Source of the DNA: Vicia villosa
Lineage: Eukaryota; Streptophyta; Magnoliopsida; Fabales; Fabaceae
Reading direction: 5' to 3'
Length of the DNA stretch: 64,000 nucleotides
Assembly (NCBI RefSeq): GCF_029867415.1
Contig: NC_081185.1
Location: 42,044,766-42,108,765, forward strand
Shown here: positions 7,746-52,716 of the stretch, in pieces
Numbering within the stretch: position 1 is the first letter of the stretch
Layout: every line of letters begins with the position of its first letter
Made by a program: the position numbers and the translations under genes
Notes under the pieces: generated by a model
Told to the model about the DNA's origin: nothing
The model's input: the letters and a program-made list of their open reading frames with translations, nothing else
Databases searched by the model: none

Positions 7746-7817
7746 GATTCTTTTATTTTTCAATGATTTACTAGTTGTTTTGAAACATAACCAAATGAAT
7801 GCAAGTTACTATCACCA

Positions 7818-8954: not shown

Positions 8955-9036
8955 ACCCATTTGCTTAGAGCCAAAATAAGTTCAAAACTACATAGCTTTC
9001 TCTTGTGCTATAACAAGGACCCTCGATTAGCCTCCT

Positions 9037-21300: not shown

Positions 21301-21386
21301 CGCCTTCAAACAAAGTCATTAGCCCCTCAAAAGAGCGCGGGCCCATATGACAATCTTTCAAAGATGCCAAGTCAAAAGGGGAGATG

Positions 21387-23810: not shown

Positions 23811-23820
23811 CTATAAATAG
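23811..23820 (+). promoter_or_regulatory. TATA box of the Ogre-1 3' LTR
   Basis: Exact copy of the CTATAAATAG box at 6,704. Transcription from here would read out into element A and B sequence, antisense to both. Confidence 0.7.
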
Positions 23821-24766: not shown

Positions 24767-25012
24767 AAACTTGCCCTAGTGGCCTCCCATACGCCCTTAG
24801 TCTCATCATGCCTCAAGTATGGGGTTCGAATCCCCCTCGCCCCAGACTTTTTGATTCTTTTATTTTTCAATGATTTACTAGTTGTTTTGAAACATAACCA
24901 AATGAATGCAAGTTACTATCACCACACGCGCGTTGGCTCAGTGGTGTTTGTTTTGAGTGTGTGACCTAGAGGGCGTGGGTTCAAACCCTCCAAGGGCCAA
25001 AACTATTTTTTT
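24767..25012 (+). other. tRNA-like modules 1 and 2, 3' LTR copies
   Basis: Same boxes and T runs as 7,660-7,905, offset by 17,107 bp. A and B boxes of both modules are unchanged between the two LTRs although substitutions occur nearby. Confidence 0.5.
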
Positions 25013-28000
25013 AACACACAATTTCTTTCATTTTCTCACAAACTTCACATATTTATTTAACCTATCAAATTAATTTATTTTCACTTCATTTTTCACACAC
25101 TTATCATTTAATATACCTATTTTGTGAATAATAAAAAAAATCATAAAAATATTATTTATTTCATATATTTTTATTAGGTTTAAAATAGTATGTTTTAAGT
25201 GTTTTCTTAAATACTTTAAATACATATATTCACTTTGTTTTAACCTAATCATTTTGTAAATAAAGTTTATGATAAAACCCTAATTGTTTAGGTCTTAATT
25301 AAGTAAAAATCTTTATTTTTACTTTGATTAAGTTGACTTTTGTCAATATTCAAAACTGTTTTCAATCTCTAATTAAACGGATGATTAAGGTTTTCAAACA
25401 ACAAAACCTTGTATCATTCCAAATCATTTTCAAATTGCTTTTACACCAGTACTGTAAAGTACTGGGCCTCTAATAGAGTGTAAGTCCCAAAAACCTTCTC
25501 TTCTTAGCTTGTTTTCAAAACTGTATTTTCAAAATCTTCTTTCTGTTTTCAAAACATTCTTCTGGTATTTGAAGGGCATTATTCCCGGTGAAACTCTTCA
25601 GATACCTATGTGACCTTTGTCCATCTTCACTTCTTCTGTTTTCAAAAACCATTAACTGTTTATCATATATATATTCAACTGTTATCAACAAAACAACAAA
25701 AATTACTGTTGAGGCTCTGTACATACTTCTTCAATGGCCTCCACTCCATCCAGGTTAGGCTTTACAAGCTTTCAATTTACAGTCTTTATTTAAATTACTG
25801 TCAAATATAAACTGTGCATATATATTAGTTTAGAACTACGTTTGAGTATAATTCCTAGGACAGTTAAACTATATATATATATTATAGGAATATGACCTAG
25901 GATTGAGAATGTCTTCCCGGTGAAGGCTCTTTCCTAATTAGAGATCTGTAGTTCAAACCCCCAAGATGAATTATTCCCGGTGAAACATCTTGGCAAAAAC
26001 CTTAGAATCCAAAATAATAGGACACATCCACCCAAAGAGGAATTATTCCCGGTGAAACCTCTTACCCATTTGCTTAGAGCCAAAATAAGTTCAAAACTAC
26101 ATAGCTTTCTCTTGTGCTATAACAAGGACCCTCGATTAGCCTCCTCTTGGGCTTTGTACAAGGACCCACAGGCTTCTTAAAAGCATTTCCAGCTTCCTCT
26201 TGAGCTTGTATACAAGGACCCATCAGGTTTCTTATAAACATAGGAACAGGTCTTTAGTCACCTTTTAGCCTACCCTGGTGAGTTTCTTCCAATTTAAACC
26301 AGACTTTAAACAAGCTAAGTTTGTCTCAATTTTGCATTGAGTACACCTTTTGGAATGAGAGACATGGACAGTCTCTGTCACCCTTATCTTCATCAATCTT
26401 CCTTAGCAGAGTCTAGGATCCATGTTTGATCATCCTCAGCATGTGTCAGCCTTCATCTTGGGCTTTAAACAAGAAGTCTCCATTAGATAATCTTTCTGCC
26501 ATTCATTTTCAATAAAACCCCTGGAAAGGGTTAGCCTCCAAAGTCAATTAAAAATCATTCCATCATTTCAATAAAATTCCCTGGAAAGTGTTAGCTTCCA
26601 CACATTCTTTCATTTTCAATAAAACCCCTGGAAAGGGTTAGCCTCCAAAGTCAATTATTAAATGTCAAAATAAATAAAGATTCATTTCTCTTAGGAGATA
26701 ATTTCCCCAAAAGAGTCAAAACCCCTGGAAAGGGTCAGCCTCCAAAAAACATGATAAAGTCAGTCTTTTAACAGACAAATTCACCAGCTGAGTCAAAATC
26801 CCTGGAAAGGGTTAGCTTCCAAAGAAAAACAGTCTTTTAATAAATAAAACCTCCTCAGTAGAGTCAAAACCAACAAAAACAGTTAGCCTCAACCTTGGGC
26901 TTCATACAAGGCACCCAAACAATAAAACTCCCCTGTCAAGAGTTAGCCTCAACCTTGGGCATTGTACAAGGCAGATAATAGAGTCTCCCCAGTGAGTTCT
27001 TCATCATTCAGTAGCCACAACCTTGGGCTTTGTACAAGGCAGATAAACCATATTTTCATGTGTCAAAGATTCCTAACACTTAGGATCTTTTCCCCATAGA
27101 GTCATCCATACTCAGTTTATTTAAGAGTCTGCCACAACCTTGGGCTTTGTACAAGGCAGAAAATAATGTTTTCTCTAGCTAGAGTCAGCCACAACCTTGG
27201 GCTTTGTACAAGGCACATAAAATAGAGTCATTCATTCAATTATCCTCAACAGTTAGCCACAACCTTGGGCTTTGTACAAGGCACATAAATAGAGTCTCCC
27301 TAAGTAGAGTCAGCCTCAATTCTGGGCTTTGTACATAACACAAAAATACCCTGTAATTAATCCCCAGTGGAGTCATCTCCCAGAGTCAATAATTAATTAA
27401 TCAATCAAAAAGCCTCAAGCTTGGGCCTCATACAAGCCAGCTAAAGTCAAATCTTTTATACAGTTGATAGACATAGCTTATCTCTATAGAGAGATATTTT
27501 TACTACTCTACCACATTCAAACAAACAAACATTTCATTTCAATTTTAATCAAGTCTCCCATTTAGGATTTTGAAAGGCATGAGCTGGCAGTAAAACCCAG
27601 ACATGTGGTAACTTTCCCTAATTTGGATGAGCATCTTTCTTTCATTTAAGAGGCATTTGACTGGTATACTTGCACATACACAAGTCAGGTCCCCCTCTTG
27701 AATGAAATGAATTCAGTTATTCTGTCACTCCTTTAAATGTTTGTGGTAGAATAGTACAAATACCTCTCTGTAAAGATGATTTCATGTCTCTTTACTGTAA
27801 ACAGAGATTTAATTCCAAGCTTCAACCTTGAGCTTCAAGCAAGGCACCAAAAACAAGTAATTTCCCTAGTTAGTTCCCCGAACTACATTAAGCTCTGACT
27901 TCCACTAGGGATATGTAGGCATGAGGTTCACAAGGAATCTCAGCGAGCTAATAAAATACCAAAAATAGTCAGTTTGTTTGTCTGTCTGTCTTTTAAAATC

Positions 28001-28386
28001 AATTCAATTCCTTCTCCTAACACAAAGGAGAAACTTTCCCAATAATCATTAGCAGCACAATCACAATGACACAGAGAAGGTTCCTGTAGAGTACTACAGA
28101 TATGTAGGGTGTTTAAACACTTCCCTATGTATAACCGACCCCCCGGACTCCAGAATTTCTAGTCTAGGTGAAATCCCCACACTTAGCAAACTCCTAGGGT
28201 TTAGTTGAGATCTTTTTTCCCCTTTCCTACTCGTAGGACAAATAAGAAAGTTCGTGTGATATCGTAGGAAGAACTGAAATAAAATTCATCCCATCACGGG
28301 CGCATTCTCCTTCCAAATTTCGCGTGAAGGGTTTAGCGTGCCGTCCTCCCAAGTGAAACGGGGAGGTAAAGAAAACGACCACCACA

Positions 28387-28512: not shown

Positions 28513-28817
28513 TGAAGGATAGAAAAACACTTAGAAAGGGGGGGTTTGAATAAGTGTAGCTTTAAAAACTTGACAGATAAAAATAAATTGCACAGTTATT
28601 TTTATCCTGGTTCGTTGTTAACTAAACTACTCCAGTCCACCCCCGCAGAGATGATTTACCTCAACTGAGGATTTAATCCACTAATCGCACGGATTACAAT
28701 GGTTCTCCACTTAGTCAGCAACTAAGTCTTCCAGAGTCTTCTGATCACACACTGATCACTCCAGGAACAACTGCTTAGATACCCTCTAAGACTTTTCTAG
28801 AGTATTCTGATCCACAC
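28513..28817 (-). repeat. 3' LTR of B, first part (before Ogre-2)
   Basis: 305 bp identical or nearly so to 50,596-50,900. Interrupted at a CACAC by Ogre-2 and resumed at 42,841. The two parts sum to 1,206 bp, the same as the 5' LTR. Confidence 0.95.
28813..28817. repeat. Target-site duplication of Ogre-2, left copy (CACAC)
   Basis: CACAC before TGTCATACCCC and again at 42,836-42,840. The uninterrupted site is visible in B's other LTR near 50,896. Confidence 0.95.
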
Positions 28818-29963
28818 TGTCATACCCCAAAATTTGCCCATGCTATTCAAAACACAAAACTCCAAAACACAGTCTCCTACACAGAAACTCTAAACTAGGG
28901 TTTGACTAATTCAAGGGAAAATCATTGAATCAATGGCTCAAGGTGGTTCAATAAGGTCCCTAATATCCCAAAGTATCTCCATATAAAGTTTCAAGTCAAA
29001 CAGAACAAGTTGGTCCCTCAAATCATGATTAGGACAACAGTCGATCCCCAAGGGCAAAATAGTCATTTCAAGTCCAAATACAGTCAAAGTTCAAGATACT
29101 TGGTCAACAATATCCTCATAACCCTAAAATCATCATTTGATTAAGGGTTGATCATGATGATACAAGAAAAGATCAGAAAAGTCAAAAGTTAAAGGTTACT
29201 ATTTTAGGCATGAACTGAAAAAGTCAACCAAACTTTGAAAATTCACCAAATATTCATACTTCATCAGAAAAATTCCCACCAAAGCTCATTTTGAAGGGAA
29301 TTCATTCCTCTATCCAATGGTCCAAGAATCAGAGCCCATAGGTCAATGGTTTAAGAGATATGGCTTCATACATTATAGGTCTTTTCCAAAAGTCAACAAA
29401 AAGACATTTTTTTCAAAAGGTCATAAAATGAGAATGGCAAATGATTTTGATATGGGATCAAAGACACTAGTTAGAGGACTCTCTAAGGTTTCCAAAAAGT
29501 CCACAAGCTTGAAAAAATATTGAGATATGAAGGAATGGCATGGTGTACAAGTTCACCTATTTTCAAGAGTGTACAAGAGGGAAAAAAGCCTAAAACTCAA
29601 AATATTTCTAAATGGGCTTGCATTCCTTTTATTCTAACTTTATTTTAAGCCCATCCACGTGCTAGAACAAGGAGCATGTTATTTTCACTATTTTATTTAT
29701 TATTTTATGGTTTTAATTCATTAAAATCATGATTTAATTATATAAAATATAAAAATAATGCAAGATTGGATTTTGCTTTAATTTTAAGTCAAGAATTGAA
29801 TCAAATCTCTCCCACCAATCAGTCAATTTCGTTCATGATGCTTGAATCCCAAGATTGGCCTAATATAGAAAGGATCCATGGCAAATTTCAATCAAATTTC
29901 CAATCACATTCAATTCTTGATTCAATGAAGATTTGTTCCAATTTTGTTGACCTAAAACGCTCT

Positions 29964-29973
29964 AGTATATATA
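29964..29973 (+). promoter_or_regulatory. Probable TATA box of the Ogre-2 5' LTR
   Basis: AGTATATATAC followed by CA-rich sequence. Another TATA-like sequence (GTATAAAAAG) lies near 30,483, and I cannot tell which is used. Repeated near 40,255 in the 3' LTR. Confidence 0.5.
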
Positions 29974-31845
29974 CAAAAGCATTGCAGACCCTTAAGGGGA
30001 GGAAATTCGGCCTAAAAGAACTCTAACCCGAGCACACAAATCTCAAAGAAAATTGAAGTTGCTCTTGGAGATTCAGGCTGATTCAAGAGGATTCAAAGAT
30101 TCCAACACGTTCCCCAAGCATCACTGAGCGTCTCTCGATCCTTGACAAGCCTCGATACATCCGGAGACGCCTCCAGTCCTTCAAGGTTTGACCAAATTCG
30201 TATTCACTCAATTATCACATTCCATGCATTCTAATTGATTTTTGGATGTGTTTTCGTACATATCGTGATGTTATAATCAATCCTGGATGTTTAATTGTGT
30301 TTTCATGTACGTTTGCTGTGATTCACCATGTTAGGGTTTATGGACTTTGAATTAGGGCTTTTTGATTGACTAAGAATTAGGACAAATCATATAGTTCATG
30401 AAACTCGTGACCTCTGGACGATCACAATGGAGGGGTCGCGAACAATTTCTAGTTTGTTTTGGCCGTTTTATGGTTTTCACAGGTATAAAAAGCTTGGCCT
30501 TTCATAGCGCGTCTGCAAAAAGCGCTGTAAAAGCGCAGTCTGCAATTTCTCAGCGAGGAAGACGATGCGTGGCAGCATCCGATAGGCCAGTTTGAACGGG
30601 CTTTGGCGCGCAGGATTTTGGAACGACTTGGGATCCGGTGATTCTCAGGTTCGCGCGTATGACGCACCCTCACTCTCTGAGTCTCTTGATTTCATCAATC
30701 CGTCATCCAGCGTACCAAAGACTGCAGGTGCACCATGCTCCCGTGCGCGCTGCCACACCAAATCATAAGCTAAGAATTTTTGAAATTTTTTTTAATTTTA
30801 ATTATACAACCCTTTATTTTGTGTATTTTGATATATATATATTTTGTTTTTTTTCTTTCTTTCTTTTAAATTTATATAAAAAACTAATAAATAATTTTAT
30901 AAAAAATATTTTTAATATTTGTTATTTATTTATTTTTAGAGTATTAATATTTATATTATTATTAAGAATACTTATTTTATACTAAGATCCTTATTTAATT
31001 CACTAATATTCTAAAAAATTTTCCAAAAAATATATTTCGCATCCGATTTTATTTTTCGACTCGATTTAATTAATTAGGTCGTTAGACCAATAATTAATTA
31101 AATTATTTATTCTCCTTTTTTACAACTTCTTCGTACCCTAATTAGGGTTTATGAAGAATAAGCCATACACTGATTTCATTTGATTTTCTTGTTATCAGGG
31201 TTAGCAACATGATTCGCCCCGAGCGCGCGCCTTCAACAAACCCCAAAGATAAGTGTTCTATTCTATTTAATTTTAATTATACTTAAATTAATTTACTCTT
31301 AGGGTTTGCTTTGCGTTCACCCTCTCTCTCTGCCATGTCTTTTCAGGGTTACCCCCGAGGTTTCTTCCGACTCAAACCATATCAGATCAAATCAAAGCTA
31401 AGTACCCTCGCCTATTTGATCATTTTTTTTTCTTTATTTATCTACTCTTTATTTTTTAGAGTCACCCCCGCCCGCCTTTGAATTAGTCATACACTCACCC
31501 AATTTTGTTATTTATTTGCCTTTTCAGGGTTTGTCGAATGCCAAAGCGACGAGTCTGGTAACCCTGAGCCCTATCTTAAATGTTTTTTTCTATTTTATTA
31601 TTACTTGTGTCAACCCTGATAAGGGATCCGCTGGTTACAATTTCCCGCCCCCTTTATTGCTTTATGTTATTATATACTGCGTGGTTAGTAATCTTAGGGA
31701 GTGCAAGCCTTAAACTGAATTAGAATAACTAATTAAAAGATAAATATCTGAATATAATCACGTGATTGTTGCACACACGCACCCTTTTGGGGTAACCCTC
31801 TCTGTTGCCTTGTTGCCTTGTTGCCTGTTGCCTTTGTATTTTTGC

Positions 31846-32021
31846 AGAATAAGCCATGTCCCTCGAATACGAGGATACCTCAGCCACGTTGCCTCGAATA
31901 AAGGTTATGAGACCCTAAAAATGATGCTGCCTTCGATACACTAACATGACCTCGACCCTCGGATGTTGCCTACGAAAAAAGGCTGAGGTATCTTCTGGTT
32001 GCCTACGAAAAGGCTTATTCT
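31846..32021 (+). other. Large nested inverted repeat in the Ogre-2 LTR
   Basis: AGAATAAGCC (31,846-31,855) pairs with GGCTTATTCT (32,012-32,021). Inside it GATACCTCAGCC (31,874-31,885) pairs perfectly with GGCTGAGGTATC (31,981-31,992), and a local hairpin CCTCG/CGAGG sits on the left arm. Downstream are further hairpins: CCTTTC/GAAAGG near 32,134-32,160 and CCATGG/CCATGG near 32,347. It lies in the transcribed part, before the primer site, and is repeated at 42,136-42,311. Confidence 0.7.
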
Positions 32022-32548
32022 GATCCTTACCTTAGACTACCTGCCCTTCTATGGCATGGGACAGTCTTATGGCAAAGGATGCTTCGATGACCCTTCAACC
32101 TCCAAACGAAAGGCTTCCTGCCCTCTTCTGGCAAGGATAGACCCTTTCATTCTGAAAGGCTAAAAAGAGACCTATCATCTGAGTTTAAGGTAATTGCCCC
32201 TAATTGCCTTGCAATGCTCAATTTTCATATTCTTTCTCACAATTCTTAAAAAAACTGGCTACGCTCATTTACGAGCTAAAGTCCACTTTTTTTTCTTCCA
32301 TCTACTTTTTCTAAAGACAAACAAGCAAGCAAAGCAATTAAGAGCCCATGGAAAACCATGGATGCAAAGGGTGCCTTACACCTTCCCTTTGCATAAATTA
32401 CCCCCCGAACTTAGATTTCTTTAAAAAGGTTTTTTTCTGTTTCTTTTTGCCTTTCCGAATATAGTTTGGATAAAATAAAAGTCGGTGGCGACTCTTGCTT
32501 ACCGCGACATACCGATTATTAAAAAGTCAGTTCACCGTGTTACAGAAC

Positions 32549-32566: not shown

Positions 32567-33294
32567 TTTTTCGAATAAAAGAGGGGTTACCTTAAAAGTT
32601 TAGGATTCACTTAAATGTTTTCTATTGCTTGTTTTGCTTGCTTTACTTTTGCAGGGCTGTTTTGGGTATTCTGTTGTGTGAAAGATCCTAACCCGGATCT
32701 GAGTACCTTAGGTATGTGGCATGAGATCAGGGAGACTGTACGACATGTATCGTTATGGTTGAACTGGTGGCCACCGTTAGTGTGACACTTTGGTTTGTCC
32801 TGATGGCCCTTGAATCTGATCGAGGAGACATTTGGCTACCGTGTGGTGTCATGAGCACTAATTCGCCCTTAGAACCTTAGTCGAACTTGACTTTGGCTTA
32901 TAAGAAGTAGCGAGATGGCTGGCTTCGGATTCCTGACTGAAGCCGGTTGATACTCGATGCTACACTCATTGAGATTGGACTCAAGGGATGCTTTTGGCTG
33001 GCCGATTGAGTGCTATGTTGAGACAATGCCCACGAGAAAGATCAGGGATATGAGCACCATAGAACCTGGTTACTTTTTAGGACAGGTTGAACCAACTAAA
33101 CGAAAGGAAGAAGGGTATATACCTATGAACTTCATGCAAGCCTACCCTTAAGGCAATTGTGTGACTTGTTTGTGTTTGTTATCTACTTGGCATCATAACA
33201 TCATAACATCATAACATCATAACATCATGACATATCATAACCACTAACAAATTTCAAGGACCGAGAAATTTATATTTACACTGTTTTGTAGGAC
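32567..33294 (+). promoter_or_regulatory. Untranslated leader of Ogre-2 with a conserved hairpin at 32,683-32,700
   Basis: AGATCC/GGATCT around TAACCC corresponds to the AAATCC/GGATTT hairpin of Ogre-1. An 8-bp tandem repeat (CATAACAT) runs from 33,194 to about 33,233. Just before the ORF1 ATG the sequence GTTTTGTAG resembles a splice acceptor. No ORF of note. Confidence 0.55.
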
Positions 33295-34629
33295 ATGGCT
33301 TTTTCTACCAGAGATTATGTACGACTCAACTTTGTAGGGATACCTTCTGAGCTTAAGGAGCTCGCCTTGGAAGTCCCTGGAGACTCTAAGTTTGCTGAAA
33401 GACATGGTTATCTTCTTCGACTAGTCACCTCTCAATTTGAAGAAGATATGATGAGAGTCTTATGCCAATTCTTTGATCCCGAACATCATTGCTTCACTTT
33501 TCCGGATTATCAGTTGGTACCTACTTTGGAGGAGTTCTCAAACTTACTTGGTGTACCTATATCTAAGCATCTGCCCTTTACTGGATTGGAAAGCACTCCG
33601 AAACTCGAGACTATTGCTGCTGCACTTCACCTAAAGAGATCCGACATCGCCTCTAACTGGGACACCAAGAATGGAGTAGAAGGTCTCTCAGCCAAATTCT
33701 TATTTGGAAAAGCTCGACAATTTCTGAAGGCCATGAGCTATCATGCTTTTGAAGATGTTTTGGCTTTATTAATATATAGTTTGGTTTTGTTTCCTAATCC
33801 TGATCAATTCATTGATGTGCACGCAATCAAGATCTTTCTGACTCACAACCCCGTGCCTACGCTACTTGGAGATATTCTACATTCCCTTCACTCTCGTGTC
33901 ATGAAGAAGCGAGGGACTCTTATGTGTTGCACACCCTTGCTGGCTAGGTGGTTTATTTCGCACCTTCCACGCTCAGTAGTCAGAAACGATCAAAAGATGC
34001 AATGGTCTCGAAGAATCATGTCACTTTCTCACTCAGATATCCGTTGGCATGTTATGTCTCAAGAGTACGTCACTATCATTGATCATTGTGGGAAATTCCC
34101 TAATGTGCCTCTCCTTGGCATTAGAGGAGGAGTCACCTACAATCCTTCATTAGCTTTACGACAATTTGGTTATGCTCGAAGGGATGGTCCTCATCACTTG
34201 CTCATTGAAGGGGTTGTTTTCAATTATGAAGAAGATGTTCGCCAAGAGTTCATACGCGCTTGGAACAAGGTGTACAGGGTGGATAGCAAAAGTTGGGGGC
34301 AAAAGAACTCTCTTCCCTCGGAACCTTATCTTAGATGGGTACGCACTCGCGCTCAACGCTTTGTCATGCCATACCCTTATGTTAGACCTGTGATTGTTGA
34401 ACCTGAATGTGAAGAAAAGGTTCCTTTAGTTGTTCTCCATCCAGACATGCCCACTGATCTAGAAGAACTACAAAAATCATGGGTCCAATTGAAAGAAGAA
34501 AGGGATACTTTTGAGGCTCAATTCCGCGCCAAAGAGAAACAAGTGTTAGAACTCACAAGGCTACTTCAAGCAGAACAGAACGTCAATAACTTCATCGGAT
34601 CAAAGAGGAAGCGTCCATGGGAAGCTTGA
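33295..34629 (+). CDS. Ogre-2 ORF1 protein (DUF7745-like)
   Basis: Intact 444-residue ORF from ATG 33,295 (MAFSTRDYVRLNF). It aligns along its length with Ogre-1 ORF1: HHCFTFPDYQLVPTLEEFS, LSAKFLFGKARQF, FEDVLALLIYSLVLFPN, VHAIKIFLTHNPVPTLL, FISHLPRS, RGGVTYNPSLALRQFGYAR and LRWVRTRA. The C-terminus is a likely coiled coil (residues 375-430). Function unknown. That it stays intact in an element which lost every enzymatic domain suggests a role in cis or in particle assembly (inference). The residue-level similarity to Ogre-1 looks moderate, so the two families separated well before these insertions. Confidence 0.85.
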   Translation: MAFSTRDYVRLNFVGIPSELKELALEVPGDSKFAERHGYLLRLVTSQFEEDMMRVLCQFFDPEHHCFTFPDYQLVPTLEEFSNLLGVPISKHLPFTGLESTPKLETIAAALHLKRSDIASNWDTKNGVEGLSAKFLFGKARQFLKAMSYHAFEDVLALLIYSLVLFPNPDQFIDVHAIKIFLTHNPVPTLLGDILHSLHSRVMKKRGTLMCCTPLLARWFISHLPRSVVRNDQKMQWSRRIMSLSHSDIRWHVMSQEYVTIIDHCGKFPNVPLLGIRGGVTYNPSLALRQFGYARRDGPHHLLIEGVVFNYEEDVRQEFIRAWNKVYRVDSKSWGQKNSLPSEPYLRWVRTRAQRFVMPYPYVRPVIVEPECEEKVPLVVLHPDMPTDLEELQKSWVQLKEERDTFEAQFRAKEKQVLELTRLLQAEQNVNNFIGSKRKRPWEA

Positions 34630-34902
34630 AGAAATTCTAGTTTATTGTTATTATTATTCCTAGTTGTTTACACATTTACTTTTGTAAGCCAAAATGGCAA
34701 AGAACCATAAACTAAAGTACAATCTAATTATTATTATTATTATTAACAAAGCTTGTTCTTTCTTTCTTGTTTAAAGTGAATTTAAATTTTAAGGTCCTTG
34801 AAAACATTGCATATGCATAATCATATCATTCATAAACATCGCATCACAGGTTTCATAAAATCAAATGCCTCATCTTTGTTGCTGTTTATTTCAGTAAGAA
34901 AG
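34630..34902 (+). other. Spacer between ORF1 and ORF2 of Ogre-2
   Basis: Contains an ATT trinucleotide run near 34,728-34,745 and ends with a splice-acceptor-like GCTGTTTATTTCAG (34,881-34,894), 8 bases before the ORF2 ATG. The frame is open further upstream, but the AT-rich residues there do not look coding. Confidence 0.45.
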
Positions 34903-36075
34903 ATGAATCTCGAACAATCTGTCAAAAATCTTCAGGCTCAGAATAACCAGTTCCAGAAAATAATCTTTCACTTAGCCAAGGGGCAAGAAGAATTAAAGGC
35001 ACTTCTGTCCGAGAAGGAGAAGGACCAACAAAGGGAGCAAGGTGTGCAAGATGAATGGAAATCCAAACCTAAGCGATCATTCACTCCGTTGCACATGCCG
35101 ATGTCTCAAGTTCTGCAACAACTGCTCAACCAGAACTTGATAACCTTATTACCTTCATATTCAATCCCTACAAATCCTGCTCCTGGGTATAAGTACCATG
35201 CGAGATGTGCTTATCATTCGAATAGCCCTGGCCATGACACAGAGGATTGTGGACCATTGAAGCATAAGATCCAAGACTTAATTGACAACAAGATCATTGA
35301 CTTCAATTCAACTGGGGGGCCTTACATGGCTAATACCCTGTGTAAACAACAAGTTGGGGAAGCTCTGATCTCCACATCAGCATCACAACCACAACATAAG
35401 CATAACGCGCCTAAAAGACAATTCACAAAGATCAACATGACTTTGGCTGAAGCGTTGCAACAGATGCTGAGGAAAGGGCTAATGACTTTGAGGGATCCTC
35501 CTCGGAATCCTAACATTTCGTCTCATCAGTATAATCCTAATGCAAGATGTGCTTACCACTCCGACAGCATCGGACATGACACTAACGATTGTTGGCTACT
35601 GAAGAATAAAATCCAAGACCTCATTGATGATAAGATGATTGATTTCAATTCACCCGAGGAATCTCATGTGGCTAATGCTGGGAACAATCAGAAAGGTCAC
35701 AATGAACCCAACCAATCTGTAGGGACAATTCTGATCTCTACACCAGTTCCACAACAAAGATGCAAGTCAGGAGCACCTAGGCGTCAGTTCACGAAGATCA
35801 ACATGTCACTGGCTCAGGCATTACAACATTTGTTGAAAGCAAACTTGATCACTGTGAGGGGTCCTCCTGTAAAGCCCAACACTTCCGCTCCCAGCTATAA
35901 GCCCAATGCGAGGTGCGCATACCACTCCAATAGCCCTGGACATGATACAAATGATTGTTGGCCATTGAAGAACAAGATTCAAGACATGATCGATGCTGGT
36001 GAAATTGAATTCCCTCATCCCCAGACTCCTATAGTGATCCCTGCTCCCAGGCACAATCACGACAAGAATGATTAA
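34903..36075 (+). CDS. Ogre-2 ORF2: coiled coil plus three tandem gag zinc-finger modules
   Basis: ATG 34,903 (MNLEQSV) starts a 390-residue protein. Residues 1-50 form a coiled coil comparable with the gag start of Ogre-1. Three modules of about 115-122 residues follow, each with a hydrophobic helix (FTKINMTLAEALQQMLRKGL and variants), a P-rich linker and a C-x2-H-x5-H-x4-C finger: CAYHSNSPGHDTEDC (102), CAYHSDSIGHDTNDC (216), CAYHSNSPGHDTNDC (338), then a KIQDLID helix. Ogre-1 gag has exactly one such module (residues about 450-525, finger CPYHQGAPGHNIENC). The capsid core is missing. Likely an RNA- or particle-binding adaptor (inference). Confidence 0.85.
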   Translation: MNLEQSVKNLQAQNNQFQKIIFHLAKGQEELKALLSEKEKDQQREQGVQDEWKSKPKRSFTPLHMPMSQVLQQLLNQNLITLLPSYSIPTNPAPGYKYHARCAYHSNSPGHDTEDCGPLKHKIQDLIDNKIIDFNSTGGPYMANTLCKQQVGEALISTSASQPQHKHNAPKRQFTKINMTLAEALQQMLRKGLMTLRDPPRNPNISSHQYNPNARCAYHSDSIGHDTNDCWLLKNKIQDLIDDKMIDFNSPEESHVANAGNNQKGHNEPNQSVGTILISTPVPQQRCKSGAPRRQFTKINMSLAQALQHLLKANLITVRGPPVKPNTSAPSYKPNARCAYHSNSPGHDTNDCWPLKNKIQDMIDAGEIEFPHPQTPIVIPAPRHNHDKND

Positions 36076-36797: not shown

Positions 36798-38373
36798 GCA
36801 AAAGTTAGGGATATCAAAGAGATGAAAAAAAAGAAGTCAATAAATTCTTGAACAACTCAAAGTTGCAACTACCACAAGGAAGAAGTGACTGCCATCTCAA
36901 AAGTTCTCTCTGCTTATGAACCATCATCGTTGTCAAAAGCGCAAATCCAAAAGTCTCTTGGAACCTGAAGGCATAAGTTGAGTTGACTGAGCTTAGGACT
37001 GAAGTTCATCACGAAGAGGGGTGGGTACAATCAAATTTTGAGCCATTATCCTTTGTTTCTTAAACCGTGAACCAAGCCACGTTACAACCCTTGAAAGTCC
37101 TAATTGAAGCATGGTTAGTTCGAAAGCATACTGTCACAAAAAAAAAGGTATCCTGACTCCTTAAGGTTTACCAAAAACGAGGAGTCGGTATTTCATTCTT
37201 ACAAATATTATTACAAATATCATTTTTTTACAAGTGTCGTGTTTTTGCATCTCATGTTTTAAAGGTTTTTCAAAAATTCAAGACAAACGTATGCATTGCA
37301 TCTCACGAATTCATTATTAAACATATTCTGCTACATAATTTCAAATGTTAGCATCAGAAAGAACTTGCACAGGGTACAACTAATGACTGAAAGTTATCCC
37401 GACAGACAAGATTACGCCAAGAAGCAATGTATCCTACGTATACAAGGGGCATGGCATGCTTTGCCCAATCAATCTGGGGCAATCCAGTCAAGATTATAAG
37501 AATCTCTCAAAAGCCAAACAATCAAAGGCATACACCTCAAGTGGGTTTCAAACTATTTGTCCAAACAATCTGGGGCAATCAAGTCAAGATTCCGAGAACC
37601 TCTCAAGGATGCCAAAATAATCAGGGGCACGCATCCAAGAAAAATCTGAAGCTACTTCTCAACCAACATAGGACATCATATTGGGCATATGATTACTAGG
37701 GGCATGTCTCCTAAAGTGCACATCTTATAAAAGTCTCGCAAGGCGAATCTTTCCAAAGTTCCTGCTAACTGGGGGCAAGTCTATACAAGTCCAGTTTGAC
37801 ATTTTAAGTGACGTGTCCTAAATTAAGTAGTAGTTACTATAATACTGGGGGCAACTTTCACCCATGTCTCCCCACAAAGCCGGGTTCACAAGATCATATC
37901 CCCACAGAGTAATCATTAAGAAGATATCTTCAAACGCCCCCGATAGAGACATGACTGCCCAACAGAGTTTACATCTTCAACACTGTCGCTCTCCTCCAAC
38001 ATGATTTATCAATATCTTTATCACCAATCAGGGAACATCAAGTCACTGATCATCTCCAAGCAGAAATCATAAATTCCCAGCTGAGCATCTTCAAGACAAG
38101 ATCAGACAGTACAATTACAAGGACATAAAGATCTACTTTCTTAATCAAAGACAACATAAATCATATTCACATATCATATGTCATAAACATGTTCATACAC
38201 TGCATACATTACCTCATAATGAACTCATACATAACATGCAAAAGCTCTCATTTATTTTGAGGGATTCATTACATAACCCATGCATCATGACATTGCATAA
38301 AGATTAACCTTACCTTTTTCAGAATACAGGTACCGACAAATGAACGAAATCTCCAACTTTCCAAGATCTAATT
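36798..38373 (+). other. Ogre-2 3' untranslated region, middle part
   Basis: No convincing gene. A roughly 110-bp unit with CAATCTGGGGCAAT occurs twice (near 37,470 and 37,580), and TGGGGGCAA-type motifs recur to 37,860. CCCCACAGAG motifs near 37,870-37,965 resemble the links between hairpins in Ogre-1. Confidence 0.45.
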
Positions 38374-38907
38374 CAGCTACTACGAATGGTATTGACACGA
38401 TCAACGCTCGAAGATCTAATTCATTTACCACGAACGGTAATGACACGATCACTTTCAAAGTCTAATTCAGCTACTACGAACAGTACTGACACGACAAAAG
38501 ATCTAATTCGGTTACTACGAACGGTACTGACACGGTCAACTCTCAGAGATCTAATTCTATCATCACGAACGATGAAGACACGATTATCTCCTCAGATCTA
38601 ATTCAGCTACTACGAACGGTACTGACACGATCAAATTTCAGAGGTCTAAGTCTATCATCACGAACGGTGTGGACACGATCACTGGCCTTCCCAGTCTAAT
38701 TCAGTCACTACGAACGGTGCTGACACGACAAGAGAATCTAATTCTATCATCACGAACGATGAAGACACGATTATCTCCTCAGATCTAATTCTATCATCAC
38801 GAACGATGAAGACACGATCATCTTTCCAAGATCTAATTCAAGTATCACGAACGATACTGACACGATCAATTCCAAAGGATCTAATTCATCTACCACGAAC
38901 GGTAATG
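38374..38907 (+). repeat. ACGAAC-loop hairpin array of Ogre-2, twelve copies with covarying stems
   Basis: Twelve units 40-60 bp apart, usually led by AGATCTAATTC and followed by ACACGA. Each folds as three pairs, a one-base bulge, four or five pairs and the loop ACGAAC. Stem versions include CAG-c-TACT/GGTACTG, CAT-t-TACC/GGTAATG, TCT-a-TCATC/GATGAAGA, CAG-t-CACT/GGTGCTG and CAa-GTATC/GATACTG. Loop and flanks are constant while stems change in pairs. The array ends about 200 bp before the 3' LTR. Confidence 0.85.
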
Positions 38908-39108
38908 ACACGATCAACGCGCAAACAACATCTTCTCAAAATTCAACTACCAGATGGCATCCACAAGCCCATCTCCGACAAAAGTCCCTACTTCAAATAG
39001 GGCAAATTTCTTGGTATTCTTATGTTCAATCATCTTCCACCTTCAGATACCGACTGGCGCGCAAACCACTCTACATCTTCAGGTTTAAGATAATTGAACA
39101 GGGGCAGC
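38908..39108 (+). promoter_or_regulatory. End of Ogre-2 3' untranslated region with polypurine tract
   Basis: The stretch ends TTGAACAGGGGCAGC, directly before TGTCATACCCC of the 3' LTR; 39,094-39,108 is the purine tract. Confidence 0.7.
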
Positions 39109-42100
39109 TGTCATACCCCAAAATTTGCCCATGCTATTCAAAACACAAAACTCCAAAACACAGTCTCCTACACAGAAACTCTAAACTAGGGTTTGACTAA
39201 TTCAAGGGAAAATCATTGAATCAATGGCTCAAGGTGGTTCAATAAGGTCCCTAATATCCCAAAGTATCTCCATATAAAGTTTCAAGTCAAACAGAACAAG
39301 TTGGTCCCTCAAATCATGATTAGGACAACAGTCGATCCCCAAGGGCAAAATAGTCATTTCAAGTCCAAATACAGTCAAAGTTCAAGATACTTGGTCAACA
39401 ATATCCTCATAACCCTAAAATCATCATTTGATTAAGGGTTGATCATGATGATACAAGAAAAGATCAGAAAAGTCAAAAGTTAAAGGTTACTATTTTAGGC
39501 ATGAACTGAAAAAGTCAACCAAACTTTGAAAATTCACCAAATATTCATACTTCATCAGAAAAATTCCCACCAAAGCTCATTTTGAAGGGAATTCATTCCT
39601 CTATCCAATGGTCCAAGAATCAGAGCCCATAGGTCAATGGTTTAAGAGATATGGCTTCATACATTATAGGTCTTTTCCAAAAGTCAACAAAAAGACATTT
39701 TTTTCAAAAGGTCATAAAATGAGAATGGCAAATGATTTTGATATGGGATCAAGGACACTAGTTAGAGGACTCTCTAAGGTTTCCAAAAAGTCCACAAGCT
39801 TGAAAAAATATTGAGATATGAAGGAATGGCATGGTGTACAAGTTCACCTATTTTCAAGAGTGTACAAGAGGGAAAAAAGCCTAAAACTTAAAATATTTCT
39901 AAATGGGCTTGCATTCCTTTTATTCTAACTTTATTTTAAGCCCATCCACGTGCTAGAACAAGGAGCATGTTATTTTCACTATTTTATTTATTATTTTATG
40001 GTTTTAATTCATTAAAATCATGATTTAATTATATAAAATATAAAAATAATGCAAGATTGGATTTTGCTTTAATTTTAAGTCAAGAATTGAATCAAATCTC
40101 TCCCACCAATCAGTCAATTTCGTTCATGATGCTTGAATCCCAAGATTGGCCTAATATAGAAAGGATCCATGGCAAATTTCAATCAAATTTCCAATCACAT
40201 TCAATTCTTGATTCAATGAAGATTTGTTCCAATTTTGTTGACCTAAAACGCTCTAGTATATATACAAAAGCATTGCAGACCCTTAAGGGGAGGAAATTCG
40301 GCCTAAAAGAACTCTAACCCGAGCACACAAATCTCAAAGAAAATTGAAGTTGCTCTTGGAGATTCAGGCTGATTCAAGAGGATTCAAAGATTCCAACACG
40401 TTCCCCAAGCATCACTGAGCGTCTCTCGATCCTTGACAAGCCTCGATACATCCGGAGACGCCTCCAGTCCTTCAAGGTTTGACCAAATTCGTATTCACTC
40501 AATTATCACATTCCATGCATTCTAATTGATTTTTGGATGTGTTTTCGTACATATCGTGATGTTATAATCAATCCTGGATGTTTAATTGTGTTTTCATGTA
40601 CGTTTGCTGTGATTCACCATGTTAGGGTTTATGGACTTTGAATTAGGGCTTTTTGATTGACTAAGAATTAGGACAAATCATATAGTTCATGAAACTCGTG
40701 ACCTCTGGACGATCACAATGGAGGGGTCGCGAACAATTTCTAGTTTGTTTTGGCCGTTTTATGGTTTTCACAGGTATAAAAAGCTTGGCCTTTCATAGCG
40801 CGTCTGCAAAAAGCGCTGTAAAAGCGCAGTCTGCAATTTCTCAGCGAGGAAGACGATGCGTGGCAGCATCCGATAGGCCAGTTTGAACGGGCTTTGGCGC
40901 GCAGGATTTTGGAACGACTTGGGATCCGGTGATTCTCAGGTTCGCGCGTATGACGCACCCTCACTCTCTGAGTCTCTTGATTTCATCAATCCGTCATCCA
41001 GCGTACCAAAGACTGCAGGTGCACCATGCTCCCGTGCGCGCTGCCACACCAAATCATAAGCTAAGAATTTTTGAAATTTTTTTTAATTTTAATTATACAG
41101 CCCTTTATTTTGTGTATTTTGATATATATATATTTTGTTTTTTTTCTTTCTTTCTTTTAAATTTATATAAAAAACTAATAAATAATTTTATAAAAAATAT
41201 TTTTAATATTTGTTATTTATTTATTTTTAGAGTATTAATATTTATATTATTATTAAGAATACTTATTTTATACTAAGATCCTTATTTAATTCACTAATAT
41301 TCTAAAAAATTTTCCAAAAAATATATTTCGCATCCGATTTTATTTTTCGACTCGATTTAATTAATTAGGTCGTTAGACCAATAATTAATTAAATTATTTA
41401 TTCTCCTTTTTTACAACTTCTTCGTACCCTAATTAGGGTTTATGAAGAATAAGCCATACACTGATTTCATTTGATTTTCTTGTTATCAGGGTTAGCAACA
41501 TGATTCGCCCCGAGCGCGCGCCTTCAACAAACCCCAAAGATAAGTGTTCTATTCTATTTAATTTTAATTATACTTAAATTAATTTACTCTTAGGGTTTGC
41601 TTTGCGTTCACCCTCTCTCTCTGCCATGTCTTTTCAGGGTTACCCCCGAGGTTTCTTCCGACTCAAACCATATCAGATCAAATCAAAGCTAAGTACCCTC
41701 GCCTATTTGATCATTTTTTTTCTTTATTTATCTACTCTTTATTTTTTAGAGTCACCCCCGCCCGCCTTTGAATTAGTCATACACTCACCCAATTTTGTTA
41801 TTTATTTGCCTTTTCAGGGTTTGTCGAATGCCAAAGCGACGAGTCTGGTAACCCTGAGCCCTATCTTAAATGTTTTTTTCTATTTTATTATTACTTGTGT
41901 CAACCCTGATAAGGGATCCGCTGGTTACAATTTCCCGCCCCCTTTATTGCTTTATGTTATTATATACTGCGTGGTTAGTAATCTTAGGGAGTGCAAGCCT
42001 TAAACTGAATTAGAATAACTAATTAAAAGATAAATATCTGAATATAATCACGTGATTGTTGCACACACGCACCCTTTTGGGGTAACCCTCTCTGTTGCCT

Positions 42101-42835
42101 TGTTGCCTTGTTGCCTGTTGCCTTTGTATTTTTGCAGAATAAGCCATGTCCCTCGAATACGAGGATACCTCAGCCACGTTGCCTCGAATAAAGGTTATGA
42201 GACCCTAAAAATGATGCTGCCTTCGATACACTAACATGACCTCGACCCTCGGATGTTGCCTACGAAAAAAGGCTGAGGTATCTTCTGGTTGCCTACGAAA
42301 AGGCTTATTCTGATCCTTACCTTAGACTACCTGCCCTTCTATGGCATGGGACAGTCTTATGGCAAAGGATGCTTCGATGACCCTTCAACCTCCAAACGAA
42401 AGGCTTCCTGCCCTCTTCTGGCAAGGATAGACCCTTTCATTCTGAAAGGCTAAAAAGAGACCTATCATCTGAGTTTAAGGTAATTGCCCCTAATTGCCTT
42501 GCAATGCTCAATTTTCATATTCTTTCTCACAATTCTTAAAAAAACTGGCTACGCTCATTTACGAGCTAAAGTCCACTTTTTTTTCTTCCATCTACTTTTT
42601 CTAAAGACAAACAAGCAAGCAAAGCAATTAAGAGCCCATGGAAAACCATGGATGCAAAGGGTGCCTTACACCTTCCCTTTGCATAAATTACCCCCCCGAA
42701 CTTAGATTTCTTTAAAAAGGTTTTTTTCTGTTTCTTTTTGCCTTTCCGAATATAGTTTGGATAAAATAAAAGTCGGTGGCGACTCTTGCTTACCGCGACA
42801 TACCGATTATTAAAAAGTCAGTTCACCGTGTTACA
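39109..42835 (+). repeat. 3' LTR of Ogre-2
   Basis: 3,727 bp, the same length as the 5' LTR. Changes I noticed: AAAG to AAGG near 39,752, CTCAAA to CTTAAA near 39,888, ACAACCC to ACAGCCC near 41,099, one T fewer near 41,720 and one C more near 42,697. The large inverted repeat recurs at 42,136-42,311. Confidence 0.95.
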
Positions 42836-42840
42836 CACAC
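42836..42840. repeat. Target-site duplication of Ogre-2, right copy (CACAC)
   Basis: Partner of 28,813-28,817. Confidence 0.95.
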
Positions 42841-43741
42841 GATCACTCTAGTTACAACCTGCTTAGATAACCTCTAAGACTTCCTAGAGTATTCTGATCC
42901 ACACGATCACTCTAGTTCCTTACAACTTAATGTAATCAATTCTAAGAGTATTACAATTGCTTCTTAAAAGCTATAATCACAAACTGTGATATTTCTCTTA
43001 ACGTTTAAGCTTAATCTCACTAATATATTACAACAGCAATGTAGTGAGCTTTGATGAAGATGAAGATTCTGAGCTTTGAATAGACAGAGTTTCAGCAAGT
43101 TAATATGAGTTGTTTTGTGCAGAATCGTTAACCTTGCTTCTCATCAGAACTTCATATTTATAGGCGTTGGAGAAGATGACCGTTGAGTGCATTTAATGCT
43201 TTGCGTGTTCCGTACAGCATCGCATTTAATGTTATACGCTTTTGTCAACTACCTCGAGCCTTGTTCACGCTGTGTCTACTGACGTTGCCTATAATAGCTT
43301 TTAACGTTCCTTTTGTCAGTCAGCGTAGCTTGCCACTTGTACTTCCTTCTGATCTGATGTTTGTGAATATAACGTTTGAATATCATCAGAGTCAAACAGC
43401 TTGGTGCAAAGCATCTTCTGATCTTCTGACCTTGAAGTGCTTCTGAGCGTGATACCATCAGAACTTCAGTGCTTCTGATCTCATGTTCTTCTGATGCTTC
43501 CATAGACCCATGTTCTGATTCTGCTTCGACCATCTTCTGATGTCTTGCCAGACCATGTTCTGATGTTGCATGCTGAACCCTTTGAGACAAAGCTTCTGAG
43601 CGCTGAATTATGCATACTCTTTATATATTTCCTGAAAAGGAAATTGCATTGGATTAGAGTACCATATTATCTTAAGCAAAATTCATATTATTGTTATCAT
43701 CAAAACTAAGATAATTGATCAGAACAAATCTTGTTCTAACA
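42841..43741 (-). repeat. 3' LTR of B, second part (after Ogre-2)
   Basis: Matches 50,901-51,801 with one noticed substitution. The minus-strand LTR start TGTTAGAACAAG lies at 43,741. TATA box on the minus strand at 43,154-43,163 (plus-strand ATATTTATAG). Very rich in TTCTGA/TCAGAA words. Confidence 0.95.
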
Positions 43742-43910
43742 ATCTCCCCCTTTTTGATGATGACAAAAACATATATAAATGATATGAATTTGCGATCAGA
43801 AAGAACAGACGGCAAAAGACAAATTACACAGCTATAGCATAAGCATATGAATATGTCTCCCCCTGAGATTAACAATCTCCCCCTGAGATAAATAATCTCC
43901 CCCTGAAATA
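43742..43910 (-). promoter_or_regulatory. Multiple polypurine tracts of Sirevirus B
   Basis: Plus-strand ATCTCCCCCTTTTTG (43,742-43,756) is the PPT abutting the LTR; on the minus strand it reads AAAAAGGGGGAGAT. Three more GGGGGAGA blocks follow within 170 bp (43,855, 43,874 and 43,897), and another full one is at 44,815-44,830. Repeated PPTs next to the 3' LTR are a recognised Sirevirus signature. Confidence 0.85.
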
Positions 43911-43984
43911 AATACTCGAAGAACTTTAATAAAAGACTTCCCTGATTATTTCGGTAGAGACGATCATATAAGCTTTTGTCTTCA

Positions 43985-44330
43985 GAGAATTCATAGCTTC
44001 TGACTTCTGCTTCCATTGGACAGCTTCAGAACTAGAATTTCTTTAGATCCTTAGAACACTCACAGCTTCTGATTCCTGCTTCCATCTAGGACAGCTTCAG
44101 AACTTGAATTTCTTTGATCTTCAGAACATTCACAGCTTCTGATTTCTGCTTCCATTTAGGACAGCTTCAGAACTTGAATTTCTTTGATCTTCAGAACATT
44201 CACAGCTTCTGATTTCTGCTTCCATTTAGGACAGCTTCAGAACTTGAGTTTTCTGGATCTTTAGAACAATCACAGCTTCTGATTTCTGCTTCCCTCGGAT
44301 AGCTTCAGAGCTTGAATTTCTACCAACCTC
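43985..44330 (-). repeat. 70-bp tandem repeat in the 3' region of B, about five copies
   Basis: Units start near 43,992, 44,061, 44,131, 44,201 and 44,271 with the shared core ACAGCTTCTGATTTCTGCTT, then GGACAGCTTCAGAACTTGA. The two central copies are almost identical. Between env-like ORF and PPT. Confidence 0.88.
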
Positions 44331-50595: not shown

Positions 50596-51801
50596 TGAAG
50601 GATAGAAAAACACTTAGAAAGGGGGGGTTTGAATAAGTGTAGCTTTAAAAACTTGACAGATAAAAATAAATTGCACAGTTATTTTTATCCTGGTTCGTTG
50701 TTAACTAAACTACTCCAGTCCACCCCCGCAGAGATGATTTACCTCAACTGAGGATTTAATCCACTAATCGCACGGATTACAATGGTTCTCCACTTAGTCA
50801 GCAACTAAGTCTTCCAGAGTCTTCTGATCACACACTGATCACTCCAGGAACAACTGCTTAGATACCCTCTAAGACTTTTCTAGAGTATTCTGATCCACAC
50901 GATCACTCTAGTTACAACCTGCTTAGATAACCTCTAAGACTTCCTAGAGTATTCTGATCCACACGATCACTCTAGTTCCTTACAACTTAATGTAATCAAT
51001 TCTAAGAGTATTACAATTGCTTCTTAAAAGCTATAATCACAAACTGTGATATTTCTCTTAACGTTTAAGCTTAATCTCACTAATATATTACAACAGCAAT
51101 GTAGTGAGCTTTGATGAAGATGAAGATTCTGAGCTTTGAATAGACAGAGTTTCAGCAAGTTAATATGAGTTGTTTTGTGCAGAATCGTTAACCTTGCTTC
51201 TCATCAGAACTTCATATTTATAGGCGTTGGAGAAGATGACCGTTGAGTGCATTTAATGCTTTGCGTGTTCCGTACAGCATCGCATTTAATGTTATACGCT
51301 TTTGTCAACTACCTCGAGCCTTGTTCACGCTGTGTCTACTGACGTTGCCTATAATAGCTTTTAACGTTCCTTTTGTCAGTCAGCGTAGCTTGCCACTTGT
51401 ACTTCCTTCTGATCTGATGTTTGTGAATATAACGTTTGAATATCATCAGAGTCAAACAGCTTGGTGCAAAGCATCTTCTGATCTTCTGACCTTGAAGTGC
51501 TTCTGAGTGTGATACCATCAGAACTTCAGTGCTTCTGATCTCATGTTCTTCTGATGCTTCCATAGACCCATGTTCTGATTCTGCTTCGACCATCTTCTGA
51601 TGTCTTGCCAGACCATGTTCTGATGTTGCATGCTGAACCCTTTGAGACAAAGCTTCTGAGCGCTGAATTATGCATACTCTTTATATATTTCCTGAAAAGG
51701 AAATTGCATTGGATTAGAGTACCATATTATCTTAAGCAAAATTCATATTATTGTTATCATCAAAACTAAGATAATTGATCAGAACAAATCTTGTTCTAAC
51801 A
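50596..51801 (-). repeat. 5' LTR of B
   Basis: 1,206 bp, TG..CA on the minus strand. Minus-strand TATA box at 51,214-51,223 (CTATAAATAT). Confidence 0.95.
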
Positions 51802-51806
51802 ATATC
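51802..51806. repeat. Target-site duplication of B, right copy (ATATC)
   Basis: Partner of 28,508-28,512. Confidence 0.93.
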
Positions 51807-52716
51807 CTTCACATGCGTGGCATTGGACCCCTCTTTCCTGATCTGCCTTTTCTTCAGCTGTGACTCTTCTGTTAGGAACATAGATTTTGTTGATCTCATT
51901 GGAAGTGTTCTTGACATTGAATCTGGACTTCTGACCAACCCTTTTAATAAGATTGTTGAATTGTTTTCCAAGCATGGCTATGGCTTATGATATATTGTCA
52001 TTATTTCCTCCATTGCTTGCATTATCATCTGTGTTGGTGATAAACACTATACTTTTGTTCTTCTTTTCAACAGGCTCACAGATGCTCAACTCAAAGGTTT
52101 GTAGAGACCCAATGAGTTCGTCTAGCTTCATGTTGCTGATGTCTTGGGCTTCCTCTATGGCAGTTACCTTCATATCAAATCGCTTAGGCAGTGATTTGAG
52201 GACTTTTCTTACCAATTTTTCTTCAGTCATTTTTTCTTCTAAGGCTCCTGAGTTGTTTGATATCTTAAGAACATTCATGTATAATTCATAAATGGTTTCG
52301 TCCTCTTTCATCTTGAGATTTTCAAACTTGGTGGAAAGCATTTGAAGTCTCGACATCTTTACCTTAGACGTGCCTTCATGTGCTGCTTTGAGAATGTCCC
52401 AAGCTTCTTTAGCCATCTCATAGTGTTGCACAAGTCTGAATATGTTCTTGTCAATACTATTGAACAGTGCACTTATGGCCTTGGAATTGCCCAAAGCTAG
52501 CTCTTCTTCAGTTTTTCTCCATTGATTTTCAGGAATTAGAACAATGGTTCCATCTTCCATAATCTTCTCAGGATGTTTCCATCCGCTTTCAACAACTCTC
52601 CAGGCCTTGCTATCCACTGACTTAATGACTGCTACCATATGAGGTTTCTAGTAGTCATAGTTAGAGCCATCCAGGATAGGTGGTGTATTTCCAAATACTA
52701 ACAGTTCCTTCTCCAT
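51802..52716 (-). pseudogene. Gag of element A, 5' part, inactivated
   Basis: Starts at ATG 52,716 (MEKELLVFGNTPPILDGSNYDY). TAG at 52,648-52,650 stands where tryptophan is expected. The long open part (52,638-51,985) is a UBN2-type copia gag: VDSKAWRVVESGW, AKEAWDILKAAHEGTSKVK, LVRKVLKSLPKRFDMKVTAIEEAQD. It ends at a TAA before AIAMLGKQFNN. Downstream the frame moves toward a zinc knuckle (QCHACEGYG), where B is inserted. The rest is at 28,392-28,512. Confidence 0.88.

Follow-up and report, generated by a model that had tools for sequence, protein, structure and literature searches.

The 3′ untranslated region (3′UTR) of the Ogre-2 element of Vicia villosa carries an array of twelve bulged hairpins, and our analysis supports this array as a maintained sense-strand RNA structure that covaries within and between copies of the element. 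Hairpin arrays unrelated in sequence occupied the same site in other Ogre families of V. villosa. The tandem repeats of Ogre 3′UTRs were already known, and their nature as covarying RNA hairpins adds to what the literature consulted describes. The stretch of DNA that was analysed, referred to as the window, comprised 64,000 nt of contig NC_081185.1 (assembly GCF_029867415.1, genome of 2.03 Gb), positions 42,044,766-42,108,765 of the forward strand, and coordinates below are counted from its first letter. The features of Ogre-2 were the following:

28818-32544, forward strand: 5′ LTR, followed by a PBS-like stretch
33292-34629, forward strand: ORF1, a stop-to-stop frame with DUF7745 (PF24924, E 8.2e-118)
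34786-36075, forward strand: ORF2 of 429 residues, in which a CX2HX5HX4C zinc-knuckle module occurs three times in tandem
38364-38916, forward strand: array of 12 bulged hairpins of 38-40 nt each, outer stems included
38364, 38412, 38459, 38499, 38547, 38594, 38642, 38693, 38734, 38781, 38829 and 38877, forward strand: starts of the twelve units
38376-38393, forward strand: unit 1 as an example, comprising the inner stem-loop TACT-ACGAAT-GGTA, the adjacent bases of the arms, and the bulged C
38917-39108, forward strand: spacer of 192 nt that separates the array from the 3′ LTR and has the polypurine-tract-like AACAGGGGCAGC at its end
39109-42835, forward strand: 3′ LTR, 99.87% identical to the 5′ LTR

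Ogre-2 is a young element with two long LTRs and a target-site duplication of 5 bp, CACAC, which was read off the sequence letters at 28813-28817 and 42836-42840. The empty target site was found undisturbed at 50896-50900, within a paralogous stretch of the window (50596-51807) that matched 28513-28817 at 100% and 42836-43747 at 99.8%; since this near-identical stretch retains the undisturbed site, both the duplication and the insertion of Ogre-2 must be recent. An extra ORF1 with DUF7745 was located upstream of gag in both Ogre elements of the window (E 8.2e-118 in Ogre-2 and 3.3e-129 in Ogre-1). No match to capsid, protease, or reverse transcriptase (RT) was obtained in the window copy of Ogre-2, so that the Gag-Pro and RT/RH-INT set of Tat/Ogre elements was not found there and the copy is regarded as a pol-less derivative. 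Its tandem array is situated between the coding region and the 3′ LTR, the place of Ogre 3′UTR repeats. Elsewhere in the window, at 2472-5233 on the minus strand, fragmented frames resembled by appearance a copia-like integrase and RT.

The triple zinc-finger protein that the initial annotation had placed in the same element is real: ORF2 repeats, three times in tandem, the part of Gag that comes after the capsid domain. Each module aligned with this region of the Ogre-1 Gag, and ORF2 itself is devoid of a capsid. A sequence search of ORF2 against the PDB returned no matches, and nothing scored above the cut-off in Pfam and NCBIfam. Close relatives were found among many database proteins, including those of pea (listed as Lathyrus oleraceus) and V. 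villosa.

An array of twelve hairpins with a fixed ACGAAC loop had been described at 38374-38907. The twelve units were confirmed, with the hexaloop ACGAAC in units 2-12 and ACGAAT in unit 1 (loop positions 38382 to 38895). An outer GATC/GATC stem had been overlooked, and the true span is about 38364-38916 because the outer stems belong to the units. The units followed one another at start-to-start distances of 41-50 nt, and every one repeated the same geometry of a 7-nt 5′ arm, a 6-nt loop, and a 6-nt 3′ arm, set in a frame present in 12/12 units: TTC (GTC in one), 7-nt arm, ACGAAC or ACGAAT, 6-nt arm, and GACACG. In the minimum-energy fold, a GAUC/GAUC stem forms the outside of a unit and is followed inwards by the UAAU/CAC internal loop, an upper stem whose 5′ arm bulges by one base, and the hexaloop. 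The outer stem appeared as GATC/GATC, GATC/GATT, AATC/GATT, GGTC/GATC, GATC/GGTC, or GTC/GAC, closing a near-constant TAAT/CAC internal loop. The one-base bulge was kept as described. When a single base of the 5′ arm was allowed to bulge, all six variable pairs formed in 12/12 units; this base was the third of the arm in most units and the second in the TATCATC/GATGAA and AAGTATC types. A search of the window with a covariance model of the 12 units returned exactly those 12 sites, all on the plus strand (E up to 1); recovery of the units is by construction, and the informative part is that the window held no further site.

Pairing was complete in the upper stems of the window array, where 72/72 variable cells paired in the sense strand, 8 of them as G-U and none as A-C. 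When the 3′ arms were shuffled among the 10 distinct units, complete pairing was reached in 1/10,000 trials. The stem arms do change together, as had been claimed: in the 12-unit alignment, seven of the twelve pairs of the full structure showed change on both sides, and in the outer stem two of its four pairs did so. Over the full structure, 97.2% of the cells were paired against 85.4% in shuffles (0/500 as high), and displacing the 3′ partners by 1 to 3 columns lowered pairing to 17-40%. The sense strand of the array folded with a z of -3.56 (0/100 dinucleotide shuffles as low), and the antisense strand with a z of 0.00 (51/100 shuffles as good).

The structure was then followed in other genomic copies. 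From 2,557 candidates, 40 loci were scored, namely the window copy and 39 others, and these are not independent, as they were picked by their likeness to the window array and some are segmental duplicates. Loci L002-L008 duplicated L009-L015 and were removed before all counts, and where a locus was represented by two pieces, the second (8 of 48 rows) did not enter as a separate count. Units were located with a finder that used 14 fixed positions and was blind to the arms. The 40 copies contained 510 units (10 to 20 per copy) with 37 distinct arm pairs, 33 of which were fully paired. Pairing held in the 39 further copies as well; over all 40 copies, 3055/3060 upper-stem cells paired under the sense rule versus 2732 under the antisense rule. 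When only Watson-Crick pairs were used to place the bulge, the upper stems comprised 3744 Watson-Crick, 331 G-U, 3 A-C, and 2 other cells; the outer stems of the same copies comprised 1797 Watson-Crick, 121 G-U, 10 A-C, and 112 other cells, many of the last being due to the GTC/GAC type, which is without the outermost pair. The bulge was retained in all 510 units. The loop, TAAT, and CAC were near fixed across copies, and the arms and linkers were variable. Fold energies were calculated for 12 copies with 25 shuffles each, giving negative values in the sense strand of 12/12 (mean z -2.79, range -4.13 to -1.62) and a mean of +0.99 in the antisense strand (range -0.50 to 3.02).

The Ogre-2 stems thus tolerate G-U and not A-C (331 versus 3). 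Decay of methylated DNA from C to T yields G-T and A-C equally, and the asymmetry therefore requires sense-RNA selection or an unknown strand-specific process. A genome-wide pattern count returned 4,362 matched AG/CT arms and 45 AG/AT chimeras, with 0 for the reversed-pattern controls, where free combination at the arm ratio of the 510 units would give ~1,586 chimeras. This scarcity is not counted as proof of selection because linkage within the unit explains part of it.

For a null that takes the phylogeny of the repeats into account, a tree of 141 distinct 47-mers was used, on which substitutions were redistributed randomly, column by column, in 500 simulations. Two-sided covariation reached 1.508 in the observed data and lay above all 500 simulations (null mean 0.219, maximum 0.766), so that its significance survives once the repeat phylogeny is modelled; compensatory change beyond phylogeny, the mark of a selected RNA structure, was accordingly found in the Ogre-2 array. 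Paired cells on the tree amounted to 1104/1128, with a null maximum of 1098. Taken individually, three upper-stem pairs were strong (0, 0, and 2 of 500) and two were variable without reaching significance (29 and 83 of 500). Against the same null, the outer stem alone was weaker, with 14/500 for covariation and 44/500 for paired cells. A one-step network of the 37 variants pointed the same way. Full pairing was kept in 27/31 changes under the sense rule versus 15.8 expected (between 11.4 and 17.5 when the transition weight is varied from 1 to 8; P 5.2e-9 to 2.4e-4), and in 5/11 under the antisense rule versus 4.2 to 5.8 expected; changes that break pairing as often as they keep it were therefore not what the copies displayed. 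These changes consisted of 14 from Watson-Crick to G-U, 6 from G-U to Watson-Crick, 4 to A-C, 3 to other combinations, and 4 involving the bulge. Likewise, full pairing was observed in 15/15 variants present in at least three copies versus 15/18 of those present in one copy.

The second Ogre element of the window bears an array of its own:

5176-11277, forward strand: 5′ LTR of Ogre-1
21389-21928, forward strand: 3′UTR hairpin array of Ogre-1, seven units of 75-76 bp
22283-28386, forward strand: 3′ LTR of Ogre-1

Between the two LTRs, ORF1, a Gag-protease frame, and RT were identified; at 18688-19767, the RT frame runs straight into an apparent integrase end, as after an internal deletion. The units of this array form a TCTCATC/GATGAGA or TCTTACC/GGTAAGA stem around a constant TCCAAGTGCT loop, and the array also holds a small ACCRT-CAA-ATGGT hairpin. 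Upstream of it, at 21200-21320, more inverted repeats were observed (GTTTTC..GAAAAC inside ACGAAT..ATTCGT). Across 21 copies (the window plus 20 loci from the genome listing, out of 877 candidate loci for Ogre-1), 194 units were counted, 110 and 73 of them belonging to the two main types, together with 10 other paired variants and one chimera, and 1357/1358 cells were paired. The advantage of the sense strand was small in Ogre-1, with 83 sense versus 79 antisense of 84 cells among the distinct variants, and both strands folded well (z -6.39 and -3.62).

Unselected Ogre 3′ ends were sampled with a pattern joining the primer tract to the LTR start, which occurred 19,855 times in the genome (control, 0). 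The first 30 junctions listed were used, all on one chromosome arm end and including the near-duplicates L090/L091 and L096/L097, with 1.5 kb (20 junctions) or 1.0 kb (10 junctions) of upstream sequence. Arrays with a period of at least 40 were found at 26/30 junctions and corresponded by eye to about 11 sequence families. In 20/26 arrays, one or more pairs of the sense structure changed on both sides, and the consensus fold beat column shuffles (at most 2/100) in 22/26 in the sense and 14/26 in the antisense strand. The array is therefore not a peculiarity of one element, as had first been thought; such arrays are widespread at Ogre 3′ ends in the V. villosa genome. The four other junctions (L081, L085, L100, and L105) presented no hairpin array of period at least 40 within 1.0-1.5 kb upstream, and all four were of the GGGGCAT type, to which L093 and L102, both with Ogre-1 arrays, also belong.

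Two tandem arrays of the window served as controls. One, at 60819-61589, is a 39-bp tandem of about 20 copies with no consensus RNA structure, and the other, at 43975-44321, is a 70-bp tandem of 5 copies with some consensus fold. Neither contained a two-sided pair, yet one still scored 1/100 in column shuffles, so that the fold-energy test alone is not specific. A counter of perfect-stem hairpins did not separate arrays from controls because of the bulges in the stems. When arms were permuted among distinct units (5000 trials), the observed pairing was equalled once for ACGAAC, twice for the TTTGAC outer stem, 13 times for ATTCAC (1/5000 when L083 was taken alone), and 0 times for TAACGCAC; in three small families and in L092 (613/5000), the permutation was not significant. 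In the TTTGAC, ATTCAC, and TAACGCAC arrays, the sense rule performed no better than the antisense rule (antisense versus sense cells, 53 vs 49 and 54 vs 49 in two of them and 72 vs 72 in the third), and the strand asymmetry was not found in these three. The evidence that covarying hairpins are general is thus firm in one family, good in a second, and partial in the remainder. By eye, the loops of several unrelated families end in AC (ACGAAC, TTTGAC, ATTCAC, YAACAC, and TAACGCAC, mostly hexaloops). This ending was seen in L083, L087, L088, L090, L089, L095, and the window array, with Ogre-1, L080, L092, and L099 as exceptions, and may be coincidental.

The stretches upstream of 12 copies of the Ogre-2 array, picked by their array, contained the knuckle module in 11 cases (in one of them as a piece of 33 residues), ORF1 and capsid in 2 cases each, and RT in 1, and the Ogre-2 LTR end was present in 10/12. 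In one of them, a region with matches to ORF1, capsid, knuckle, protease, and RT (L072) precedes an array (L038) of 14 units, 13 of them fully paired. Copies with and without pol carry the same array, and therefore both kinds of element share the signal. The setting of the pol-less V. villosa copies, with arrays near the knuckle module, agrees with that of the Lathyrus arrays FabTR-54 and FabTR-57, which lie in pol-less elements near GAG (PMC7004042).

The LTR retrotransposons of the Tat lineage, Ogre among them, are known to carry hypervariable tandem repeats in the 3′UTR (Macas et al. 2009, cited in PMC7004042), and related cases include the Gmr9/GmOgre minisatellites (PMC3305785) and the Retand arrays (PMC11963269), whose origin and function are described there as unknown. 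Like the V. villosa arrays, the Ogre/Tat repeats are situated between the coding region and the 3′ LTR with units of tens of bp; their sequence families are numerous and unrelated, and pol-less elements carry them as well (PMC7004042). In the published accounts consulted, these repeats are treated as DNA without known function, whereas the V. villosa units are covarying RNA hairpins. No mention of hairpins for Ogre 3′UTR repeats was found in the open-licence literature, to which the 2009 source paper does not belong, and the terms hairpin, stem-loop, and secondary structure were absent from the accessible text of PMC6317226. Exact unit patterns gave 0 matches in each of the viral-contig and genome-contig collections. 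With arrays at 26 of the 30 junctions and a two-sided pair in 20 of these 26, the long-known hypervariable 3′UTR repeats of Ogre look like RNA hairpin arrays.

As to function, the array is a candidate multivalent platform for Gag/NC binding or packaging, a reading drawn from sequence patterns to which we give a little less than an even chance. The 10-20 near-identical bulged stem-loops in the 3′UTR of the genomic RNA would be kept by sense-RNA selection during replication of the element. Since the unpaired parts are fixed on stems of free sequence, a repeated protein-binding site is suggested, in which a protein would read the hexaloop and the internal loop and repetition would supply avidity. 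Within the element family, the most likely reader would be the nucleocapsid part of Gag with its zinc knuckles; virus-like particles would then most likely take up the array-bearing RNA as preferred cargo. Pol-less derivatives, which retain both array and knuckle module, would accordingly be moved in trans by relatives that have pol and the same array. The Gag knuckles are the best candidate reader because the derivatives keep this module and need recognition in trans, even if joint retention of module and array may be mere proximity, as the module adjoins the 3′UTR.

Packaging signals of retroviruses and retrotransposons are groups of stem-loops bound by nucleocapsid, usually a few different ones near the 5′ end. 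The Ogre array resembles them in that stem-loops occur in the genomic RNA of an LTR element that also encodes Gag zinc knuckles, and differs, as a candidate signal, in consisting of 10-20 copies of one hairpin in the 3′UTR. The coat-protein operator hairpins of RNA phages and the iron-responsive element combine a short stem, a one-base 5′ bulge, and a hexaloop. As in these, the bulge of the Ogre hairpin lies four or five pairs below the hexaloop, and stem sequence is free while the geometry of loop and bulge is fixed. Unlike them, the Ogre hairpin is arranged in tandem and has an internal loop and an outer stem in addition, and its loop letters are different; the likeness is one of geometry only and no common descent is claimed.

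A broader proposal, which we regard as possible but doubtful, is that the 3′ ends of Fabeae Ogre elements are selected for rows of hairpins of identical geometry, whose loop and internal loop would act as an element-specific code read by the cognate Gag, with families being replaced as autonomous elements and pol-less parasites compete for packaging. If true, this competition would explain why the repeats are hypervariable and yet always present, and how new satellites are seeded.

Among alternatives, the array might hold a host protein for nuclear exit or decay resistance of the long, partly spliced RNA. By analogy, constitutive transport elements of simple retroviruses lie near the 3′ end and serve RNA export; they share with the Ogre array a repeated internal-loop motif between coding region and 3′ LTR, but comprise two copies in one long stem, where the Ogre array is made of separate hairpins. 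Such an export or stability role would be in keeping with the location of the array in the sense RNA, with a repeated site bearing an internal loop and a hexaloop, and with the retention of the array by copies stripped of most coding sequence. We nevertheless consider it unlikely, as many unrelated loops per genome would require one host factor reading many motifs, or many factors, and the array matches no Rfam family at gathering score (six weak matches, best E 0.15, all below the cut-off). An effect in cis on translation or 3′-end formation, or processing or sensing by the host small-RNA machinery, would likewise suit a structured sense RNA in the 3′UTR, and we rate it as improbable; for silencing in particular, the short, bulged stems are unlike a dicer substrate.

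The remaining explanations fare worse. Inheritance of a few old hairpin types by duplication of whole units would by linkage alone yield the observed scarcity of chimeras (45 versus 4,362 matched), and units do duplicate whole. It is nonetheless very unlikely to account for the data, given that the tree-aware null and the one-step test count changes rather than descendants, and that every variant in at least three copies was fully paired. Template switching or hairpin repair could copy one arm onto the other, with array homogenisation spreading the product, and matched arms would follow; indeed, Ogre 3′UTR tandem repeats are thought to stem from abnormal strand transfer (PMC7004042). This mechanism, which the initial annotation had offered as its own alternative, fits poorly and appears highly improbable, since arm copying gives perfect Watson-Crick palindromes and the bulge persists in 510/510 units, a strand-symmetric process would give G-U and A-C cells in equal numbers, and one-step changes pass through G-U (14 from Watson-Crick, 6 back). 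Together with the pairing in 39 other copies and the excess over the tree-aware null, the bulge and the G-U cells thus uphold the earlier view of a maintained structure. Binding sites or cruciforms in double-stranded DNA or cDNA would agree with imperfect palindromes and GATC arms in a mobile element, and are just as hard to credit, because a DNA site would fix the stem letters, whereas here the stems vary, the unpaired positions are fixed, and the sense strand tolerates G-T and not A-C mismatches; these objections do not reach a structured intermediate made of plus-strand cDNA. Because ACGAAC is not self-complementary, a self-pairing (kissing) loop was set aside.

Covarying hairpins shift the question posed by these repeats from DNA turnover to RNA recognition, which is accessible to probing and binding assays. 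Ogre elements constitute a large share of Fabeae genomes, amounting to 45% of that of Lathyrus sativus (PMC7004042). If Gag reads the hairpins, they would be a rare example of tandem duplication amplifying a code for packaging or partner choice, and would provide a reason for the many plant satellites that start in Ogre 3′UTR regions.
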